A DNA stretch of 38,519 nt. It comes from Aeromicrobium sp. GTDB lineage: Bacteria; Actinomycetota; Coriobacteriia; Anaerosomatales; Anaerosomataceae. Location of the stretch: the NCBI GenBank assembly GCA_015351705.1, contig JADIIM010000054.1:1-38519 (forward strand). Reading direction: 5' to 3'. The notes below the pieces were generated by a model. It was not told where the DNA came from. It saw nothing but the letters and a program-made list of their open reading frames with translations, and did no database searches. Of this stretch, positions 4,923-15,782 are shown piece after piece. How positions within the stretch are numbered: position 1 is the first letter of the stretch; each line of letters begins with the position of its first letter. The translations under genes were made by a program, and so were the position numbers.

Positions 4923-4968
4923 TTGGCGAACACGTCCGTGCAGTGGTACGATGCAGGACGTTCAGGCA
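4923..4968 (+). promoter_or_regulatory. Predicted ccm operon promoter with GTTCAGGCA at the start site
   Basis: TTGGCG (4923-4928), an 18-bp spacer ending TGG, and TACGAT (4947-4952) form a -35 and extended -10. Seven bases later comes GTTCAGGCA (4960-4968), covering the predicted transcription start. The hemA promoter has the same layout. Confidence 0.55.
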
Positions 4969-5080
4969 AGCAGGGTCATCCGCGGTGTGTCTGCGTGGCC
5001 GGTCGACGGCCGCTCCGCGCTCCTGCGACGCTGTACGTCGTTCTTCTCGTCCGCACAGGGCAGTGAGGAGTGATCGCGGA

Positions 5081-5764
5081 GTGAACAAGCGTGCCAAGCA
5101 GCGCCTCATGGGCGTCACCATCCTGATCTTCGTAGCGGTAGGCGCGCTCATCGGACTGACGCGGCTGGGTAACGCCGCAGCCACCCCGGTGAGCATCGAT
5201 GCCGTCCTGAGCGACTCGGAACTGGTGGGCCGTCAGATAGAAGTCACCGGTGAGGTCGTCGCGGGGTCATGGGTCTCCGGCGCCAAGCCGTTCGTGTTCG
5301 AGATCGAAGACGCCGACGCCGACGGCAGCGGGCGCGTCCAGGTCATCTGGGACGATGTCGTGCCTGGCTCGTTCGGCGACGGCACGACCGCCACGGTGAC
5401 CGGCGTCATCAACGAGGAAGGCGCCGTCGAGGCGAAGTACCTCGTGACCAAGTGCCCGTCCAAGTACGAGTCGGCTACCGGGGCGCTCACCGTCAACGAC
5501 GTGCTCAGCCGCTCGAGCGAGCTGATCGGCTCGACCCTCAAGGTGACCGGGTTCGTCACTGCCGGCTCCATTCAGCCGGCAGGCGGCGCCGAGCGCTTCC
5601 GTATCGCAGACACGGCCGGAGCGGCGGACGGTCTCCCGATCGCGTATGGCGGCGGGCTTTCCACCGAGTTCACCGATGACTCCAAGGTGGTCATCACCGG
5701 CTCTATCGAGGCGGACGGCATCTTCCAGGCCACCGAGGTTGCCCTCGACAACGCCAGCAAGTAG
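5081..5764 (+). CDS. ccmE: CcmE-like haem chaperone, CxxxY variant with a second OB-like domain
   Basis: A 227-residue membrane-anchored periplasmic haem chaperone for cytochrome c maturation. An N-terminal anchor (about residues 10-28, MGVTILIFVAVGALIGL) is followed by an OB-fold region (37-130). That region ends in LVTKCPSKYES, so the haem-binding motif is Cys125-xxx-Tyr129 and not the canonical HxxxY. CxxxY CcmE is known from archaea and some sulfate reducers that also lack CcmH. Residues 135-227 (LTVNDVLSRSSELIGSTLKV...) repeat the pattern of the first domain (VSIDAVLSDSELVGRQIEV...) but have no C/HxxxY, which suggests an internal duplication. GTG at 5081 is chosen because the anchor begins nearby, with GAGGAG 11 nt upstream. 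It is the first gene of the ccm operon. Identity rests on motif, fold pattern and context. Confidence 0.88.
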   Translation: MNKRAKQRLMGVTILIFVAVGALIGLTRLGNAAATPVSIDAVLSDSELVGRQIEVTGEVVAGSWVSGAKPFVFEIEDADADGSGRVQVIWDDVVPGSFGDGTTATVTGVINEEGAVEAKYLVTKCPSKYESATGALTVNDVLSRSSELIGSTLKVTGFVTAGSIQPAGGAERFRIADTAGAADGLPIAYGGGLSTEFTDDSKVVITGSIEADGIFQATEVALDNASK

Positions 5765-5844: not shown

Positions 5845-7914
5845 ATGGACCTCGGGACCCTGGGCAATTCACTGCTCGCGCTGGCGAGCATCGCGGCGGT
5901 CGCCTCGATCGTCGCTATCGCCGCTGGCGGCAAGGACGGCGCCAACGCGCGCCGAGTGGGCGGCATCCTGACCTTCGCGGTCCTCGGGTTCACCACGCTC
6001 GCGACACTCCTTCTGGCTGTGGCGTTCCTCACCGAGAACTGGGCGCTGCAGTACGTCGTCTACAACCACCCGACGCTCACCGGGCCGACGGCGTGGATGT
6101 ACCGGCTCTCTGGCGTCTGGGCAGGCCGAGAGGGGTCGCTCCTGTTCTGGGAGTGGGTGCTCGCGATCTTCGCCGGCTTTGTCGCCTACAAGACCCTCAA
6201 GGTCGATGACCGTCTCGGCTCCACGGGCCTTGCGGTCCTGAACTTCGTGCAGCTGTTCTTCCTCGCGGCGATGTTCATCGACCTCAACAACCCCTTCAAG
6301 CTGACCCCTCCGGGGCTGGTCGACCCCAATACCGGGGCGCTGCTGACCAGTGCCGCGATGAACCCGTTGCTGCAGACGTGGGCGATGATCGCCCACCCGC
6401 CTACGCTGTTCATCGGGTACGCGGGCCTGGCGGTTCCCTTCGCCTTCGCGGTAGCGGCGCTGATCGTCGGCGACACCTCCAAGCGCTGGGTCGTCTTCTC
6501 CGACCGCATCACCGTCTTCTCCTGGCTCCTGCTCGGTATCGGGATCGGCCTCGGCTCGGTGTGGGCCTACATCGAGCTCGCCTTCGGCGGGTACTGGGCG
6601 TGGGACCCGGTCGAGAACGCGTCGATCCTGCCGTGGCTCACGGGTGTGGGCCTCATCCACTCGATGACCGTGTACCGGCGCAGGGGCGGTTTCCGTGCGT
6701 GGACGTTCATGCTCGCAGCGATAACGTTCGTCTACGTGTTGCTCGGCACGTTCATCACGCGTTCGGGCATCGTGCAGTCAGTCCATGCCTTCCAGGAGGA
6801 TCCGCTCTCGTTCTGGCTGTTCCTGACGATGATGGTGGGCTCGCTTGCGGTGGTCGCCATCGGTGTGGCGATCCGCTGGAAGGACCTCCAGAGCGAGCAT
6901 GATGGCTTCGAGCGCATCATCTCCAAGGAGGGCTCGTACTACTTCAACAACGTCATCATGCTCATCGCCGCGACGCTGATCGCCTACATGACGCTCGCGC
7001 CGGCGTTCCCCTCGTGGATGCCGCTCGGAGGGCAGTCCATCAAGCCGCCCGCGTACGACGCGCTGGCGCGGCCGATCGGCATCTTCTACATCATGGTCAT
7101 GACCGCGTGCCCGATCCTCGCGTGGGGCGGTGGCGACTGGAAGAAGCTCTGGGAGCGTGCACGCATGCCGATCATCGGCGGCACGGTGCTGGGCGCGCTG
7201 TTCGTGGCGCTCTATGTCTTCGTGATGCTGCCGTTCTACACGCCGGACGGCACCACGCCGGACTGGTGGCACCACTTCCTCGCGATCGCGGGCGTGGTGA
7301 CGGCAGGCTACGCCATCGCGCTTCCCACGTGGCTGTTCATCGACGGCACGCGCAAGCGCGCCGCCAGCACGGGCACGTCCATCGGCTCGGCGTTCGGCTG
7401 GATCCTCACCAAGGCACGGACGCAGTCGGGCGGCTACATCACCCACCTCGGCATGGGCGTCATCCTGATCGGCCTGGTGGGCTCGACGATGTTCGTGCGC
7501 ACGCACCAGGTGGTCCTGCCGCAGCAGCCCGGTGCCAGTCAGTCCGCCGAGGGCTACACGTTCACCTTCGTCGACCTCGAGGAGACGCAGGAGAACGTGC
7601 GCGAGGGCGGAAGCGGAGACACCGTCTACACCCTGGTGACCGACGTGAGCAAGAACGGCAAGAGCGTGCAGATCGCCCGCCCGCAGATCCGCTTCCCGCA
7701 GCAGCTGGCGGCGCAGAACCAGACCACGCAGCACGTCGCGCTTGTGATCGAGCCGTTCAAGGACGTGTTCCTGTCCTTCTCGGGCATCGACCAGGCGGGC
7801 AACGGCAACCTCACCGTGAAGTTCTTCCCGATGCAGAGCTGGGTGTGGCTCGGATTCGTGATCACCATCCTCGGCAGCGGGCTTGCGATGTGGCCCAAGC
7901 GACAGGCGGCCTAG
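5845..7914 (+). CDS. ccmF: CcmF, haem lyase component of cytochrome c maturation
   Basis: A 689-residue polytopic membrane protein of the haem-handling superfamily. It takes haem from CcmE and attaches it to apocytochrome c CxxCH motifs outside the membrane. The N-terminal half shows repeated helices and the hallmark NHPTLTGPTAWMYRLSGVW and AGREGSLLFWEW segments. The WWD-type haem-handling loop GGYWAWDPVENASILPW lies near residues 248-264, followed by GTFITRSGIVQSVHAF. After more helices a periplasmic domain (about 560-660) precedes a final transmembrane helix (WVWLGFVITILGSGLAMWP). Length matches typical CcmF. The ATG has GGAG 8 nt upstream. It sits between ccmE and ccmA. Because no ccmH is present it may work alone with CcmE, as in variant System I. 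Confidence 0.96.
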   Translation: MDLGTLGNSLLALASIAAVASIVAIAAGGKDGANARRVGGILTFAVLGFTTLATLLLAVAFLTENWALQYVVYNHPTLTGPTAWMYRLSGVWAGREGSLLFWEWVLAIFAGFVAYKTLKVDDRLGSTGLAVLNFVQLFFLAAMFIDLNNPFKLTPPGLVDPNTGALLTSAAMNPLLQTWAMIAHPPTLFIGYAGLAVPFAFAVAALIVGDTSKRWVVFSDRITVFSWLLLGIGIGLGSVWAYIELAFGGYWAWDPVENASILPWLTGVGLIHSMTVYRRRGGFRAWTFMLAAITFVYVLLGTFITRSGIVQSVHAFQEDPLSFWLFLTMMVGSLAVVAIGVAIRWKDLQSEHDGFERIISKEGSYYFNNVIMLIAATLIAYMTLAPAFPSWMPLGGQSIKPPAYDALARPIGIFYIMVMTACPILAWGGGDWKKLWERARMPIIGGTVLGALFVALYVFVMLPFYTPDGTTPDWWHHFLAIAGVVTAGYAIALPTWLFIDGTRKRAASTGTSIGSAFGWILTKARTQSGGYITHLGMGVILIGLVGSTMFVRTHQVVLPQQPGASQSAEGYTFTFVDLEETQENVREGGSGDTVYTLVTDVSKNGKSVQIARPQIRFPQQLAAQNQTTQHVALVIEPFKDVFLSFSGIDQAGNGNLTVKFFPMQSWVWLGFVITILGSGLAMWPKRQAA

Positions 7915-7921
7915 GCAAGCG

Positions 7922-8653
7922 ATGGCCGACGAGCAGCATAGTGCTCCTGCGCTGGAGGTCCGGGATCTCACCCGGGCCTTCGGCGTGCGCAAGGCGCTCG
8001 ACGGTGTGAGCTTCGATGTGCCCGAGCGTGCGTTCCTGTCGATCTTCGGGCCCAACGGCGCCGGCAAGACCACGCTCGTCAAGGTGCTCACCACACTGCT
8101 GAACCCCACGAGCGGCACGGCGAAGGTGCTCGGCCTCGACGTGGTGGACGACGCCGTGGAGATGCGGAAGCGCATCGGCCTCATCAGTCACAACCCGCTG
8201 CTCTATCCGGACCTCACCGCCGAGGAGAACCTGCTGTTCTTCGCCGAGATGTACGGGATCGAGATGCCTGAGGCGCGCGTGGCGGAGCTGCTCGAGGCCG
8301 TCGAGCTCGATCACCGCCGGCTCGACCTTACGCGCACGTTCTCGCGCGGGATGCTGCAGCGGCTCTCGATTGCGCGGGCGTTGCTGCACCGGCCCGAGGT
8401 GATCTTCTTGGACGAGCCGTACTCCGGGCTCGACCCGCACGCGATGGACATCCTAGATGGCCTGATCGCCGCGGTGCGCGCCGACCACACGTTCGTGATG
8501 ATCAGCCACGACCTCGACAAGGGCCTCGAGCTTTGCAGCCATGCGCTCATCCTCGCGCGCGGCCGGCTCGTGCTCTTCGAGCCCCGTGAGGCCATCGACG
8601 ACAGCGCGTTTCGGCGCACGTATCGCGAGACCGTGGGCATGGGGGTGGCCTGA
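7922..8653 (+). CDS. ccmA: CcmA-type ABC transporter ATPase
   Basis: A 243-residue ATP-binding subunit that with CcmB and CcmC powers release of haem-loaded CcmE. Walker A is GPNGAGKTT (about residue 43) and the Q-loop region is LISHNPLLYPDL. The signature motif FSRGMLQRLSIARALL (about 140) deviates from LSGGQ in the way many CcmA proteins do. Walker B is EVIFLDEPYSGLDP, and the switch His is in FVMISHDLDKG. The ATG at 7922 lies 7 bp after the ccmF stop. Longer in-frame reading only overlaps the ccmF end. Assignment to CcmA and not a generic ABC ATPase rests on its position between ccmF and ccmB. Confidence 0.93.
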   Translation: MADEQHSAPALEVRDLTRAFGVRKALDGVSFDVPERAFLSIFGPNGAGKTTLVKVLTTLLNPTSGTAKVLGLDVVDDAVEMRKRIGLISHNPLLYPDLTAEENLLFFAEMYGIEMPEARVAELLEAVELDHRRLDLTRTFSRGMLQRLSIARALLHRPEVIFLDEPYSGLDPHAMDILDGLIAAVRADHTFVMISHDLDKGLELCSHALILARGRLVLFEPREAIDDSAFRRTYRETVGMGVA

Positions 8654-8654
8654 G

Positions 8655-9359
8655 ATGGCGAGCACGTCGATGCGCCAGTTCCGCGCGATGCTTCGCAAGG
8701 ACATCGTCATGGAGTTGCGCACCAAAGAGATGCTCATGTCGATGGGCCTGTACTCGCTGCTCACGATGGTGGTCTACTTCGTAGCCCTCTCGCAGGCTGG
8801 CTCGTCGTTCGACCCGCGCGACATCGCCGCCGGCCTCTTGTGGCTCGCGTTCATCTTCACGTCGATGCTCGGGCTGAACCGCTCGCTCGTCCACGAGAAG
8901 GACCAGGGGTGCCTTGAGGCGCTGCTGCTCTCACCGGTGGATCGCCCGGTCATCTTCTTCGCGAAGTTCATCGGCAACCTGATCTTCCTGCTCATCGTCG
9001 AGGCGCTCACGATCCCCGTCTTCGCGTTCCTGTTCCTGCAGGGGAACGCGCTCGACAGCGGTGCGCTCGCGCTCATCCCGCTTGTGCTGGTGGCCGGGTC
9101 GGTGGGCATCGCGGGAGTGGGCACGCTTCTGGCTACGATGTCGGTCAACACGACGGGCAAGGACTTCGTGCTCGCGATGCTCTTCATCCCGCTCATGTAC
9201 CCGCTGCTCCTCGGGGCGGTCACCGCCACGAGCGCAGCGATCATCGGCGGGCCGGAGGGCGTGGCTGCGTTCTGGACCGGCATGGCGTGGGTGGTGGGCT
9301 ACGACGTCATCATGATCCTGGCGTCGTACGGCCTGTACGAGTTCATCGTGGGCGCGTGA
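8655..9359 (+). CDS. ccmB: CcmB, haem exporter membrane subunit
   Basis: A 234-residue integral membrane protein forming the permease of the CcmABCD complex. After a short cytoplasmic start (MRQFRAMLRKDIVMELRTKE, typical of CcmB) there are six hydrophobic segments. The family-typical LNRSLVHEKDQGCLEALLLSP loop lies between the second and third segments. The start ATG lies 1 bp after the ccmA stop codon, implying translational coupling. A longer open frame starting inside ccmA is an artefact of the overlap region. Length and segment order match complete CcmB proteins, with nothing missing. Confidence 0.94.
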   Translation: MASTSMRQFRAMLRKDIVMELRTKEMLMSMGLYSLLTMVVYFVALSQAGSSFDPRDIAAGLLWLAFIFTSMLGLNRSLVHEKDQGCLEALLLSPVDRPVIFFAKFIGNLIFLLIVEALTIPVFAFLFLQGNALDSGALALIPLVLVAGSVGIAGVGTLLATMSVNTTGKDFVLAMLFIPLMYPLLLGAVTATSAAIIGGPEGVAAFWTGMAWVVGYDVIMILASYGLYEFIVGA

Positions 9360-9395
9360 CGCGTCCACGTACGGCATAAGGAGGTCGATCGGCGC

Positions 9396-10322
9396 GTGAG
9401 ATCAACGACCACGAGAGCGTTCATCGCGCTTGTCGTCGGCGGTGTGCTGACCCTGGCGGCCTTCCTCGGCGCGTTCTTCTGGGCGGGTGTGCCCGATTTC
9501 GGGTTCGTCCGTACGGCGGAGCGTGCCGACTCGGTGCGCTACCAGGGACCGTTCGAGCAGGCCATCGATGAGACGCGCTACCTGACCAACTTCATCGGCT
9601 ACGACGTTGAGGTGGTCTCCGGCGGTGAGACGTTCCGCGGCGACCTGCTCGAGGCCGATGAGGTGCACGTGACGCTTCAGACCGCCGAGGGCGAGGTGCG
9701 CGTCTCGGCTGCCGAGTTCGAGTCCGGGCTTGTGCGCGGCTCGTCGTACGGTCGTCCCGACTGGGGGCAGAAGATCTTCTACTTCCACGTGCCGGTGGCC
9801 GAGATCTCCTTCATCGTCTTTGGCTTCGCGGCCTTCTACAGCCTGCGGTTCATCATGACGCGCAAGCGCGAGTACGACACGAAGGCGCGCATCTCCATGG
9901 AGGTCACGCTGCTGTTCGTCCTGCTCACGATGGCCACGGGCATCCTGTGGACGAAGGCCGCGTGGGGCGTGTGGTGGGACTGGGAGCCACGGCTCACCAC
10001 GTACTTCATCATGACGTTGCTCGTGGTCGCGTACTTCGTGCTGCGCAACGCGGTCGAGGACGAGGAACGGCGTGCGCTGTACGCGGCGGCGTTCAGTATC
10101 CTCGGCTTCATCGACGCGCCGATATCCTTCTTCATCACGCGGCTCATCCCGTCGAACCACCCCGTGATCGAGCGGGGCGGGCTCGAGCCGCCGATGCTGA
10201 TCAGCTTCATCATCGCCCAGGTCGGGATGATCGCGTTCGGCTACGCGATCTACCAGCTGCGGATGGGCGAGGTGCTGCTCAAGGACCGTATCGAACACGC
10301 CAAGACCCTGTTGGAGAGGTGA
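9396..10322 (+). CDS. ccmC: CcmC, haem-handling membrane protein with enlarged periplasmic loop
   Basis: A 308-residue CcmC that places haem onto CcmE. TM1 is at about residues 8-30. The conserved QKIFYFHVPVAEISF segment is at about 125-139, and the WWD domain AWGVWWDWEPRLTTYFI is at about 189-205. FIDAPISFFITRLIPSNHP then supplies a conserved external His. Canonical CcmC has a short loop between TM1 and the HVP motif, but here about 95 residues intervene. Residues 62-115 (including VEVVSGGETFRGDLL and VHVTLQTAEGEVRV) look like a small beta-barrel (Sm/SH3-like pattern, inference). GTG at 9396 is used, with GGAGG 11 nt upstream, which is slightly long. It is followed directly by a CcmD-like gene. 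Confidence 0.93.
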   Translation: MRSTTTRAFIALVVGGVLTLAAFLGAFFWAGVPDFGFVRTAERADSVRYQGPFEQAIDETRYLTNFIGYDVEVVSGGETFRGDLLEADEVHVTLQTAEGEVRVSAAEFESGLVRGSSYGRPDWGQKIFYFHVPVAEISFIVFGFAAFYSLRFIMTRKREYDTKARISMEVTLLFVLLTMATGILWTKAAWGVWWDWEPRLTTYFIMTLLVVAYFVLRNAVEDEERRALYAAAFSILGFIDAPISFFITRLIPSNHPVIERGGLEPPMLISFIIAQVGMIAFGYAIYQLRMGEVLLKDRIEHAKTLLER

Positions 10323-10554: not shown

Positions 10555-11400
10555 GTGCTTGAGGTAGCATTCGTGGCGTTCTGGATGGCCATGGCGTTGT
10601 ACGCCGCGGCCACGGTGCTCTACGCCTATCACGTCGCCACCAAGCGGGCGGCCCTGTCGTGGTACGCGACGTTCGCCACCGGCGCGGGCTTCCTGCTACA
10701 GACGGCGTCGATCGGGCTGCGGTCCTCGGCCACCGAGGGAACGGAGCTCACCGGATCCAATGTCCTCGTGCTCATGGCCTGGGCGCTCATCTTGGTGTAC
10801 TTCGTGCTCGAACATGTGATCAAGCGCAAGGTCTACGGCACGCTGCTCGTGCCCTCGGCGCTCGTACTCATGCTGATCGCACAGATCGGCGGGCTGAGCT
10901 CCAACGTGCTCTCCGAGCTCACGCCGGAGCACGCCGCGCTGCTCGACAACTGGCGCGTAGGCATCCACGTGGCGCTGATCGCCTTCGCCAACGCCGGCTT
11001 CTTGATCAGCGCCGTCTCATCGCTGCTCTACCTTGTGCTCGAGCGGCAGCTCAAGGCGCGCAAGACCTCAAAGCTCTTCAGCCGTCTGCCGTCGCTCGCG
11101 CAGACCGACACGATCGCCCGCCGCTCGGTGGTGTGGGCGTTCCCGGCGTACACCGCCGGCATGATGCTCGGCGCGCTGCGTGCGATCGAGACCGACGTGC
11201 AGCTGTGGTGGGCCGACCCACGCGTGGTCCTCTCGGGGCTCGTGTGGCTCGCGTTCGCCGGCTACCAGTTCCTCCGCTGGCGCGTGGGTTGGGGCGGCCG
11301 CAAGGCCGCGTACCTGTCGCTCGCCGGCTTCGTGCTCGTGGTCGTGCTGGCCGTCGTCGCGCGAACCGTACCGTCCGGCTTCCACATCTTCGGCCTGTAG
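10555..11400 (+). CDS. HemX/CcsA-family cytochrome assembly-type membrane protein
   Basis: A 281-residue protein with about eight hydrophobic segments, belonging to the CcsA/CcmC/HemX haem-handling superfamily. Conserved features include NWRVGIHVALIAFANAGFLI, with the internal His of the family. A degenerate WWD-like segment (TDVQLWWADPRVVLSGLVW) and a C-terminal external His (PSGFHIFGL) follow. In Bacillus the equivalent HemX precedes hemC in the hemAXCDBL operon and affects HemA amounts. Here it lies between ccmD and the hemA block, so either a haem-synthesis (HemX) or a cytochrome-assembly role fits. The start is a GTG with GGGGAGG only 4 nt upstream. The ATG eight codons in is an alternative. 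Confidence 0.82.
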   Translation: MLEVAFVAFWMAMALYAAATVLYAYHVATKRAALSWYATFATGAGFLLQTASIGLRSSATEGTELTGSNVLVLMAWALILVYFVLEHVIKRKVYGTLLVPSALVLMLIAQIGGLSSNVLSELTPEHAALLDNWRVGIHVALIAFANAGFLISAVSSLLYLVLERQLKARKTSKLFSRLPSLAQTDTIARRSVVWAFPAYTAGMMLGALRAIETDVQLWWADPRVVLSGLVWLAFAGYQFLRWRVGWGGRKAAYLSLAGFVLVVVLAVVARTVPSGFHIFGL

Positions 11401-11409
11401 GGGAGACCG

Positions 11410-12246
11410 GTGGCCTTGTGGCATGACAGACACGTGCTCATCACCGGCGGCTCGAGCGGCATCGGGCTCGCGTTCGGCGAGCTCGCGGCCGAGCGCGGCG
11501 CACACGTGACGCTCCTCGCCCGCGATGTCGGACGGCTTGAGGCGGCGCGAGAAGCGGTCGCGGCCGCGCGCGTGACCGAGGCGCAGCGGGTCAGCGCCGT
11601 CCCGGCCGACGTGACCTCCTGGCAGTCGACCGACGCCGCCATCAGGCAGGCCGAGGATCTGGCGGGTCCGGTCGACGTGCTTGTGACGAGCGCGGGGTAC
11701 TGTCATCCCGCGCGCTTCGTCGAGATGCCGATCGAGCAGATCGAGGGACAGGTGAACGTCGACCTCCTCGGCACGCTCCACGCTGCGCGCGCCGCGGCGC
11801 CGGGGATGGTCGAGCGCGGCCGCGGCCACATCGTGCTGCTGTCGTCGATGGGCGGCATCGTCGGCGTGTACGGCTACGCGCCGTACAGCGCCGCGAAGTT
11901 CGGCGTGATGGGGCTGGCCGAGGTCCTGCGTTGCGAGCTCAAGCCCCACGGCGTGGGCGTGAGCGTGGTCTGCCCGCCCAACGTCGACACCCCCGGGTAC
12001 GCCCGTGAGCGCGAGATCGAACCGCCCGAGACCGCCCGCATCAACGGCGCGGCCCGCACCGCAAGCCCGCGCTCCATGGCGGTGCTCGTCGCCGACGCGA
12101 TCGACCGCCGCCGCTTCGTGGTGGTGCCGGGGCTCGGCTACCGGCTGCTCAGGCGCGTGAAGGGCCTCGTGCCCGAGATCTTCTACGCGTCGTTCGACCG
12201 TGATGTCGCCGCCGCACGCAAGGAGGCGAGCGCCGATGTCGCGTAG
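11410..12246 (+). CDS. Short-chain dehydrogenase/reductase (KDSR-like)
   Basis: A 278-residue Rossmann-fold oxidoreductase of the classical SDR family. The NAD(P)-binding motif is TGGSSGIGLA near the N-terminus, followed by the cofactor-discriminating ARD. The catalytic set is Ser of LLSSMGG, Tyr/Lys of YSAAK, and a proline-rich substrate lid after VVCPPNVDTPGYARE. The CPPNVDTPG sequence and the hydrophobic/basic C-terminus (LGYRLLRRVKGL) resemble 3-ketodihydrosphingosine reductases, which act on long-chain ketones at membranes. No sphingolipid genes are visible, so the substrate is open. It starts with GTG behind GGGGAGA, 9 bp after the HemX-like gene. It is probably the last gene of the ccm transcript. 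A link to haem is not evident. Confidence 0.82.
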   Translation: MALWHDRHVLITGGSSGIGLAFGELAAERGAHVTLLARDVGRLEAAREAVAAARVTEAQRVSAVPADVTSWQSTDAAIRQAEDLAGPVDVLVTSAGYCHPARFVEMPIEQIEGQVNVDLLGTLHAARAAAPGMVERGRGHIVLLSSMGGIVGVYGYAPYSAAKFGVMGLAEVLRCELKPHGVGVSVVCPPNVDTPGYAREREIEPPETARINGAARTASPRSMAVLVADAIDRRRFVVVPGLGYRLLRRVKGLVPEIFYASFDRDVAAARKEASADVA

Positions 12247-12315
12247 GCTGCCGGGCAGAGCGTCGGGAGACCGTCGCCACCGTGTGCCGTTCGGCGCGAG
12301 ACAGGTTCTCGCGCG

Positions 12316-12360
12316 TTGTTCGGGCCTCGTGCCCGGTGCTACCATAAGCCTGTTCAGGCA
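12316..12360 (+). promoter_or_regulatory. Predicted hemA promoter with GTTCAGGCA at the start site
   Basis: TTGTTC (12316-12321), an 18-bp spacer ending TGC, and TACCAT (12340-12345) give a -35 and extended -10. Six bases later is GTTCAGGCA (12352-12360) at the expected transcription start. The arrangement mirrors the ccmE promoter almost base for base around the -10. Confidence 0.6.
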
Positions 12361-12447
12361 TGCGCAGGAGGAGCGTTCATCGCGCCACCACATCGCCCCC
12401 GCCGGGCCTGCTTGCCTGAACAACAACGCACCGCTCCGGCGGGGGCG
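12351..12447 (+). promoter_or_regulatory. Structured hemA leader: two interleaved perfect inverted repeats
   Basis: Repeat A pairs 12351-12360 with 12413-12422 (10 bp, TGTTCAGGCA/TGCCTGAACA). Repeat B pairs 12394-12405 with 12436-12447 (12 bp, CGCCCCCGCCGG/CCGGCGGGGGCG). The arms alternate A5-B5-A3-B3, so the two stems either form a pseudoknot or exclude one another. They fill most of the approximately 170-nt untranslated leader of hemA. No T-box, cobalamin or other known riboswitch motif was recognised. The gap 12247-12521 otherwise holds only the promoter. Confidence 0.5.
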
Positions 12448-12521
12448 CCCAAGCCCTCCACTGTCCGTGACTCGGGCATCCCTGTCTCCGTGCGCGCAAC
12501 CCCGGGAGTGATCCGGCAGCC

Positions 12522-13892
12522 ATGCATCTCGTTCTGATCGGCCTCAGCCACAAGACCGCTCCGGTCGCCATCCGGGAGAAGCTCACGTTCCCGGCGACGG
12601 TGCAGCAAGACGCACTCACGCAGCTCAAGCGTCTCGAACAGATCGCCGAGGCGGTCATCGTGTCCACGTGCAACCGCACCGAGGTCTACGCGGTGGCGTC
12701 GGGCGAGGACGCGGGCGTGGAGGCGGTCATCGACTTCCTCTGCGACTACCACGACCTCGATCGGCACGAGCTCGTCCGCTACCTGTACATCATCACCGGT
12801 GAGGCGGTGGTGCGGCATCTGTTCCGGGTGGTCGCGTCGCTCGACTCGATGGTCATCGGCGAGGCTCAGATCCTCGGCCAGGTGAAAGAAGCCTACGATC
12901 ACGCGCTCAACGCCGGCACGACCGCGCGCGCGTACAACAAGCTGTTCCGCCAGAGCTTCGAGGTGGGCAAGCGGGTGCGCACCGAGACGGCCATCGGCGA
13001 GTCGGCAGTCTCGATCAGCTACGCCGCCGTGGAGCTCGCCAAGAAGGTGTTCGACACGCTCGACGGCCGGACGATCCTCATCCTGGGCGCGGGCAAGATG
13101 AGCGAGCTCACTGCCAAGCACCTCGTGTGCAACGGCGTGACGCGCGTTCTCGTGGCCAACCGCACGCTCTCGCGTGCAGAGGAGATGGCCGATCGCTTCG
13201 CGGGCGAGGCTGTTGCGTACGAGCGCCTGTACGAGGCGATCGCCGAGGCGGACATCGTGATCTCCTCCACCGCGGCGACGGAGTATGTCGTGACCAAGAC
13301 CGACCTCGCGCCTGCCGTGCGTCACCGCAACCGCCCGCTGTTCCTCATCGATATCGCCGTGCCGCGCGACATCGACCCGGCCGTCAACGGCCTCGGCAGT
13401 GTGTTCCTCTACGACATCGACGACCTGTCGGGTGTGGTGGAGTCCAACCTCGAGGAGCGCATGACCGAGGCGCGCCGGGCCGAGGGCATCATCGAGGAGG
13501 AGATCGCCGCCTTCTTCGCATGGGCCGAGTCCATGGAGGTGGTGCCCACGGTCACCGCGATCCGGGCCAAGGCCGAGGTCATCCGCCAGATGGAGCTCGA
13601 GAAGGCGATGAAGCGGCTCGACCTCTCGGACAAGGAGCGCAAGGTGGTCGAGGCGCTCACCTGCGCGATCGTGAACAAGATGCTCCACGGGCCCACGGCG
13701 CGCCTGAAGAAGGCCGCCACCGGCGCCGACGGATATCTGTACGTGGACGTGGCCCGCGCGCTGTACGGGCTCGAAGACAGCGAGGACCGGCGCGGCCCCG
13801 GCATGTTCCGCAACCTGATCAACCAACGTGCACGTGAGATCGTCGAGAAGCAGAAGGAGACAGGGGATAGCTTTGGCGACTGTGGAGCGTAA
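12522..13892 (+). CDS. hemA: Glutamyl-tRNA reductase
   Basis: A 456-residue enzyme that reduces glutamyl-tRNA(Glu) to glutamate-1-semialdehyde, the committed step of C5-type tetrapyrrole synthesis. The catalytic domain starts with IGLSHKTAPVAIRE and has the active-site Cys50 in VSTCNRTEVY. The conserved DSMVIGEAQILGQVKEAY follows. The NADPH domain carries ILILGAGKMSELTAKHL, and DIAVPRDIDPAV lies near its end. The C-terminal helices are the dimerisation domain. ATG at 12522 follows GGGAG by about 12 nt. The long leader may control it. HemC begins inside its last codons (20-nt overlap), showing coupled translation. Confidence 0.97.
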   Translation: MHLVLIGLSHKTAPVAIREKLTFPATVQQDALTQLKRLEQIAEAVIVSTCNRTEVYAVASGEDAGVEAVIDFLCDYHDLDRHELVRYLYIITGEAVVRHLFRVVASLDSMVIGEAQILGQVKEAYDHALNAGTTARAYNKLFRQSFEVGKRVRTETAIGESAVSISYAAVELAKKVFDTLDGRTILILGAGKMSELTAKHLVCNGVTRVLVANRTLSRAEEMADRFAGEAVAYERLYEAIAEADIVISSTAATEYVVTKTDLAPAVRHRNRPLFLIDIAVPRDIDPAVNGLGSVFLYDIDDLSGVVESNLEERMTEARRAEGIIEEEIAAFFAWAESMEVVPTVTAIRAKAEVIRQMELEKAMKRLDLSDKERKVVEALTCAIVNKMLHGPTARLKKAATGADGYLYVDVARALYGLEDSEDRRGPGMFRNLINQRAREIVEKQKETGDSFGDCGA

Positions 13893-15706: not shown

Positions 15707-15782
15707 GGGGATGTAGCTCAGCTGGGAGAGCGCTGCGTTCGCAACGCAGAGGTCGGCGGTTCGAGCCCGCTCATCTCCACCA
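15707..15782 (+). tRNA. tRNA-Ala (anticodon CGC)
   Basis: All four arms of the cloverleaf can be drawn. The acceptor stem is GGGGATG/CATCTCC with the G3-U70 wobble that marks alanine tRNAs. The D arm is GCTCAGCTGGGAGAGC. The anticodon stem is CTGCG/CGCAG with loop TTCGCAA (anticodon CGC at 15740-15742, reading GCG). The T arm is GGCGG-TTCGAGC-CCGCT. The CCA end is encoded. The gene sits between hemD and hemB in the same orientation, within the haem gene block. It would need processing from a haem transcript or its own start. Confidence 0.97.

Follow-up and report, generated by a model that had tools for sequence, protein, structure and literature searches.

Genes and leader elements at the locus

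The window, by which we mean the whole analysed DNA stretch of 38,519 nucleotides, harbours a ccm operon for cytochrome-c maturation and the gene hemA for glutamyl-tRNA reductase, each preceded by a leader with a -10-like box (Table 1). The hemA leader contains two repeats, a perfect 10-bp repeat A, which extends to 13 bp at 92% identity, and a perfect 12-bp repeat B, and their arms are interleaved in the order A5-B5-A3-B3. Positions and alternation agree with an original prediction made from the letters of the window, which had also regarded such an arrangement as unlikely by chance; indeed, a comparable pair of interleaved perfect repeats of at least 10 nt appeared in 1 of 2000 dinucleotide shuffles of positions 12301-12470. 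The hemA transcript probably starts at A5, because the box TACCAT ends 6 nt upstream of the sequence GUUCAGG. A start downstream of the repeats, which the original prediction had named as an argument against itself, is not indicated by the sequence, as the box ends upstream of A5. In most relatives, a TANNAT-like box is found in equal placement relative to A5. A consensus -35 element was not found for the hemA promoter, and the scan for canonical promoters and terminators across the window gave none on the sense strand. It should be mentioned that the evidence base consists of genome sequences, mostly MAGs, and that 5' ends were placed from -10-like boxes.

Table 1. Positions of the ccm and hemA genes and of their leader elements in the window.
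Feature	Position	Strand	Basis or remark
-10-like box TACGAT, predicted ccm promoter	4947-4952	+	sequence
Trans target GUUCAGGCAAGCAGG	4960-4974	+	15-nt perfect complement of 12407-12421; presumed ccm mRNA 5' end
C5-like segment GCGGUGUGU	4982-4990	+	complementary to 12426-12434, one G-U pair
ccmE (haem chaperone), heads the target operon	5081-5764	+	Pfam CcmE 5.9e-28
ccmF, ccmA, ccmB, ccmC	5845-10322	+	Pfam
Second Cytochrom_C_asm gene, then short-chain dehydrogenase	10555-12246	+	Pfam
-10-like box TACCAT, predicted hemA promoter	12340-12345	+	sequence; ends 6 nt before G12352
Whole element	12349-12459	+	covariance model R1, 118 bits, sole match in its genome
A5 UGUUCAGGCA, presumed start of the mRNA; target-site copy in cis	12351-12360	+	compensatory changes with A3 in 3/9 pairs
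C5 GGAGCGUU, predicted to pair with C3	12370-12377	+	one mismatch in the window's genome; AGCGCAT/ATGCGCT in G505
B5, 5' arm of the 12-bp hairpin	12394-12405	+	double changes in 8/12 pairs
Inner stem, 5' side (GC, bulge, UGC)	12406-12411	+	pairs with 12428-12434 (GCA, bulge, GC) in predicted folds
Antisense stretch CCUGCUUGCCUGAAC, includes A3 (12413-12422)	12407-12421	+	near-invariant in relatives
C3 AACGCACC	12425-12432	+	predicted partners: C5 (cis), ccmE-leader copy (trans)
B3, 3' arm of the hairpin	12436-12447	+	perfect repeat
hemA, glutamyl-tRNA reductase	12522-13892	+	Pfam GlutR_N, Shikimate_DH, GlutR_dimer

Structure and covariation of the hemA leader

The 12 bp of hairpin B are extended inwards by a second stem of the type GC-c-UGC/GCA-cc-GC, in which the distant loci L069 and L070 carry GU/AC in place of GC/GC. 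Folded alone, this hairpin is more stable than shuffled sequences in the window (z -4.4) as well as in distant members (z -3.2 to -6.8, two of these sequences including a terminator). The minimum-energy fold of the whole hemA leader was no better than that of shuffles (z -0.32), partly because a pseudoknot cannot be represented in such a fold.

The covariation check that had been proposed for homologous hemA leaders revealed compensatory double changes in 11 of the 21 pairs of A and B, with 99.5% of the alignment cells able to pair; these counts take one row per distinct variant, are uncorrected for relatedness and exclude members in which B has an indel. When relatives from other Actinomycetota classes are included, double changes are found in 3 of 9 pairs for A and in 8 of 12 for B. 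The covariation score of 0.374 for both arms compares with 0.226 after shuffling (0 of 500 shuffles as high) and with 0.09-0.125 for slid pairings. The variants of A, including those of other classes, comprise GTTCAGG/CCTGAAC, GTCCAGG/CCTGGAC, GTTTAGG/CCTAAAC and GTTTAGACA/TGTCTAAAC. Hence, the pseudoknot layout of the original prediction is supported by compensatory sequence changes in both arms.

Helix C (GGUGCG/CGCACC), a third pairing, had been overlooked there, as had the conserved inner part of B and the 15-nt complement of the loop in the ccm leader. Its arm C5 is located between A5 and B5 and its arm C3 between A3 and B3, and the helix can form in most of the 51 members of the order. 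Double changes were found in G025, G064, G054 and G048, and by eye in G006, whereby C was scored by motif position, since the automatic alignment displaced C5 in some rows. Judged from these sequences, helices A and C jointly make up an H-type pseudoknot, and it is plausible that both helices are present simultaneously. As a separate observation, a small hairpin of variable sequence (GTCCG...CGGAC type) seems to recur 3' of B3 in many relatives, corresponding to about 12460-12476 in the window.

Complementary sites in the leaders of ccmE and other genes

The 15-mer complementary to CCTGCTTGCCTGAAC occurs a single time on the sense strand of the window, namely 7 nt past the TACGAT box, 121 nt before ccmE and 7.4 kb away from the hairpin in the hemA leader. 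Likewise, 68 of 70 ccmE leaders show GTTCAGG 5-8 nt past a TANNNT -10 box. A promoter-linked search through 27 genomes returned almost exclusively ccmE or hemA leaders, with an additional site in G028 ahead of a protein resembling CcmE by eye, and the reversed control gave 0 matches. A search of the window's genome with the 12-nt loop sequence, allowing one mismatch, returned six sites: the loop itself, A5, the ccm leader, a position upstream of the gene for a small membrane protein (L109), and two more, of which one is apparently coding. In relatives, the motif recurs at A5 of hemA, in the ccmE leader and in the leader of the L109 orthologue, where it mostly lies 17-19 nt before the start codon and adjoins the ribosome binding site (RBS) upstream in most loci read. 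The conserved antisense seed is complementary to leaders of other mRNAs in the case of ccmE (68/70) as well as of the small protein, which is encoded elsewhere in the genome.

When the loop was compared with the ccmE leader of the same genome in 58 genomes, the median z-value was -3.6 against shuffled leaders, and in 35 genomes none of 100 shuffles was as good. The duplex energy showed no advantage over shuffles in G085, G089 and G069, and several targets offer 9-11 pairs only. The 137 sites show 36 target changes at positions 1-9, of which 32 preserve the pairing, mostly via G-U and otherwise via a matched change in the loop; position 10 is looser and position 11 free. Loop and targets also change or disappear together, with few independent cases. 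In G072 and G091, a loop with an altered CUUACC part (CUUACCUGAAC) faces a ccmE-leader target (GUUCAGGUAGG) that is changed to match, and the two ccmE leaders without the motif (G040, G073) belong to genomes whose hemA leaders are devoid of the hairpin.

A second contact is suggested by the C5-like segment of the ccmE leaders, which has a mean pairing of 6.9 with its own partner compared to 4.4 and 5.2 in control windows, and by matched lineage-specific changes in G005, G016, G029 and G045. The test of own against swapped partners is confounded by base composition and relatedness, with one control window also significant across all genomes and a weak effect within families; the support for C comes from the pairing level and the individual double changes.

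Situated at the predicted transcription starts, GTTCAGGCAAG could be a DNA operator for a haem-responsive regulator of hemA and ccmE, with the copy in the hairpin as second operator and the hairpin itself incidental. The constant spacing from the -10 box in both leaders would fit to such a regulator, and operator copies would likewise change together, so that the covariation of A alone is compatible with it. However, the covariation in B (8/12 pairs) and the joint change of C in G505 are left unexplained, the target changes are mostly G-U compatible, and the order of A and C in the loop, read as DNA, is opposite to that in the leaders. Moreover, the site in the small-protein leader is about 20 nt further away from the -10 box, beside the RBS, and stand-alone terminated hairpins exist. 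Therefore, we regard a DNA operator as very improbable.

Distribution and relocation of the hairpin

HemA was detected in 58 of 61 genomes, and the first 30 hemA leaders examined all carry the element with a nearly invariant core. Of the 69 genomes in the window's order (Coriobacteriia, Anaerosomatales type), the covariance model matched 66, with one strong match each; the 66 include a weak, chance-like match in G053. The element is located upstream of hemA, at a distance of up to ~190 nt, in all leaders read except that of G040, and the named relatives are Coriobacteriia and Anaerosomatales MAGs. The model also matched further families within the class, and beyond the class it matched 14 genomes, all of the same phylum, Actinomycetota. 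When 84,980 species were scanned with a pattern, no convincing member turned up beyond this phylum. The listed pattern matches from other phyla and one viral match have no stem or an unrelated sequence and were taken as chance, and matches in G390, G355, G199, G273 and G053 were rejected as terminators or coding sequence.

In some lineages, the hairpin is found in other gene contexts (family labels such as f1 or f21 are handles of the search tool). In f21 (G077, G085, G089), it is placed 3' of ccmD; G085 and G089 have a strong intrinsic terminator there. No hemA was found in the f21 assemblies, which are 77-90% complete, and the ccmE leader has a target site 32-37 nt before the start. In f46 and in G701, the full element precedes a ccmC-like gene that is followed by ccmE and ccmF. 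In f74 and f93, a T run directly follows the hairpin, A5 is absent, and the neighbours are mostly moaC/mogA-like genes; for example, G659 (f74) has a terminated hairpin between a moaC-like and a mogA-like gene, and the target lies in the hemA leader 2.1 kb away. In G611, the hairpin upstream of hemA is itself terminator-like. Altogether, a T run directly after B3, as in intrinsic terminators, was seen in G611, G659, G732, G544 and G650, with none in the window, and the cis copy A5 is absent from most f20 and all f21 members. Because the placement of the hairpin varies in this way across f21, f46/G701, f74/f93 and G611, hairpin and target are, as read from these genomes, separate entities. If pairing in trans is general, the hemA leaders of f46 are expected to carry GTTTAGGCAAG.

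These placements also bear on the question whether the element represents a new riboswitch class acting in cis, in which A and C would be ligand-dependent pseudoknot helices and the other sites relics of duplicated leaders. A strongly conserved pseudoknot, an A-rich loop linker (AACAAC), a biosynthetic gene downstream and the absence of an Rfam match are in line with this idea. On action in cis, the placements point both ways: the element precedes hemA in the order and the ccm genes in f46, but occurs without hemA in f21 and apart from it in f74. However, f21 keeps the hairpin without hemA, f74 encodes hairpin and target apart, and the ccmE leaders of the order have retained the A5-C5 half only, which is in register with the loop and lost together with the hairpin. 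A new riboswitch class is hence hardly probable. Known riboswitches were rejected as identity of the element, because no Rfam family matched. At gathering score, Rfam reported no riboswitch or leader family and a tRNA as its only match in the window; weak, unrelated matches were obtained at E-values up to 10, and on nine distant loci a tRNA only. This agrees with the original prediction, which had recognised no known riboswitch class. Likewise, our literature search on a hemA riboswitch, small RNAs of Coriobacteriia and RNA control of ccmE or hemA found no precedent, and an RNA link between haem synthesis and cytochrome-c assembly was not found in the databases and papers searched.

A proposed leader-embedded antisense RNA

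The loop is complementary to the predicted 5' ends of other mRNAs, the hairpin exists on its own without adjacent hemA, and it is lost together with its target sites. For these reasons, we consider it likely that the hemA leader contains an embedded antisense RNA, which would act in cis on the 5' end of hemA and in trans on ccm and other mRNAs, thereby coupling haem synthesis and cytochrome-c maturation. From the earlier reading of the leader, the covarying pseudoknot-type RNA has stood the analysis, but not the haem-sensing switch; nothing pointed to haem feedback or a metabolite aptamer, and the loop is instead complementary to other messages. A ligand for the element is possible.

In the proposed mechanism, hairpin B would display a long loop that recognises GUUCAGGCAAG(CAGG), whereby its 5' half (A3, up to CCUGCUUGCCUGAAC) would pair with GUUCAGGCAAG-type sites and its 3' half (C3) would make a second contact with a GGUGCG segment some 8-20 nt further along the partner. 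The first partner would be the 5' end of its own hemA mRNA, giving the H-type pseudoknot, the second the ccmE operon mRNA at its 5' end, where up to 15 bp and a further 6-9 bp would form, and the third the site just before the RBS of the small-membrane-protein mRNA, with the A contact only. At sites adjoining the RBS, as in the small-membrane-protein gene and in ccmE of the hemA-less f21, blocked translation would be the most likely effect. Where the site lies at the very start of the mRNA, as for ccmE and hemA in the window's order, pairing might alter decay, RNase access, access to the 5' end or pseudoknot formation. As net outcome, haem synthesis (hemA) would be tied to haem use (Ccm) by an RNA. 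The structure and its covariation, the target sites, their joint absence with the hairpin and the separate encoding in other lineages are read directly from the sequences, from which we infer that the hairpin is transcribed, released by termination or processing and paired with its partners in the cell. In the window and most of the order, a free small RNA may not exist, because no terminator follows B there, and the hemA mRNA itself could be the pairing partner.

In a variant of the antisense reading, no free small RNA is made in the window's order; full-length hemA and ccm mRNAs would pair with each other, and the ccm 5' end would displace the weaker cis helix and in this way control hemA. 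The missing terminator after B and the ccmE match of 15 bp compared to 10 bp in cis speak for it. There is also a precedent in Listeria, where pairing between the hly and prsA2 mRNAs protects a 5' end from RNase J1 (PMC8079631). As in that system, pairing here would involve the distal 5' UTR of the partner mRNA and might protect its 5' end against RNase J, but there the partner is a 3' UTR, and a conserved hairpin loop and a self-target are absent. In f21 and f74/f93, on the other hand, separate hairpins with a terminator favour a small RNA, if only in these lineages. We assume that the mRNA-mRNA variant is rather unlikely, at about one chance in four.

Returning to the antisense RNA as such, a wider proposal has in our opinion slightly less than an even chance. 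Here, a mobile regulatory hairpin would couple haem supply and use, and hemA and ccm messages would compete for one antisense loop via intra- and intermolecular pseudoknots. The hairpin would have been relocated (hemA leader, ccm leader, after ccmD, alone) with the recognition sequence kept.

Relation to known RNA regulators and significance

No described RNA family matches, and the nearest analogues are SreA and OppZ. The SAM riboswitches SreA and SreB of Listeria act in trans on the prfA mRNA (PMC8079631). In contrast to these, the hemA element, for which a ligand or homology would be hypothetical, carries its own target copy at the 5' end and is conserved across classes, and some lineages encode its hairpin away from the leader. 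OppZ and CarZ are autoregulatory small RNAs from 3'-UTRs of Vibrio (PMC9438474). The f21 hairpin resembles them, because it closes the row of ccm genes, after ccmD, and is complementary to the ccmE leader, as expected for a 3'-end RNA repressing its own operon; however, the hairpin studied here also occurs in hemA and ccm leaders and has a strong structured stem, and a role of RNase E or Hfq would be hypothetical. Plasmid antisense RNAs of the CopA/CopT type use loop-loop recognition and are encoded opposite their target. The recognition element is a hairpin loop here as well, whereas the present RNA is trans-encoded and predicted to have several chromosomal targets.

As far as is known, bacterial haem control is mostly exerted via proteins. 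Few antisense networks are conserved this far and also show compensatory changes in both seed and target. The RNA with its readable target code is predicted to link the committed step of haem synthesis to cytochrome-c maturation, and its layout could provide a natural example of an intermolecular pseudoknot. The system is testable in the cultured members Anaerosoma and Parvivirga; isolates of this deep actinobacterial lineage carry 17-18 multihaem cytochromes (PMC9686372).

Additional observations

The gene L109:1530-2078 (G000 contig C5) codes for a conserved small protein with a single membrane span and without Pfam match, which is present in 54 of 61 genomes and represents a new candidate for haem/cytochrome biology. 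L430:884-2113 (G028) codes for a 410-aa protein with, by eye, a CcmE-type N-terminal part and has a target site in its leader; it may be an extra regulon member. GTTCAGGCAAG was also found near a TATACT box at L303 (G023) and L326 (G031), in one genome each, upstream of an S-adenosylhomocysteinase-like gene and a small membrane-protein gene, respectively. Many further GTTCAGGCAAG sites were set aside, since they fall within P-loop (GSGKS) codons.

Regarding tRNA genes, ARAGORN called a tRNA-Ile at 12003-12071 (-) inside the short-chain dehydrogenase gene on the opposite strand; this call is probably false, because the Rfam tRNA model does not report it. A tRNA-Ala (CGC) is situated at 15707-15782 (+) within the haem cluster, between the hemC/hemD-like and hemB-like reading frames.
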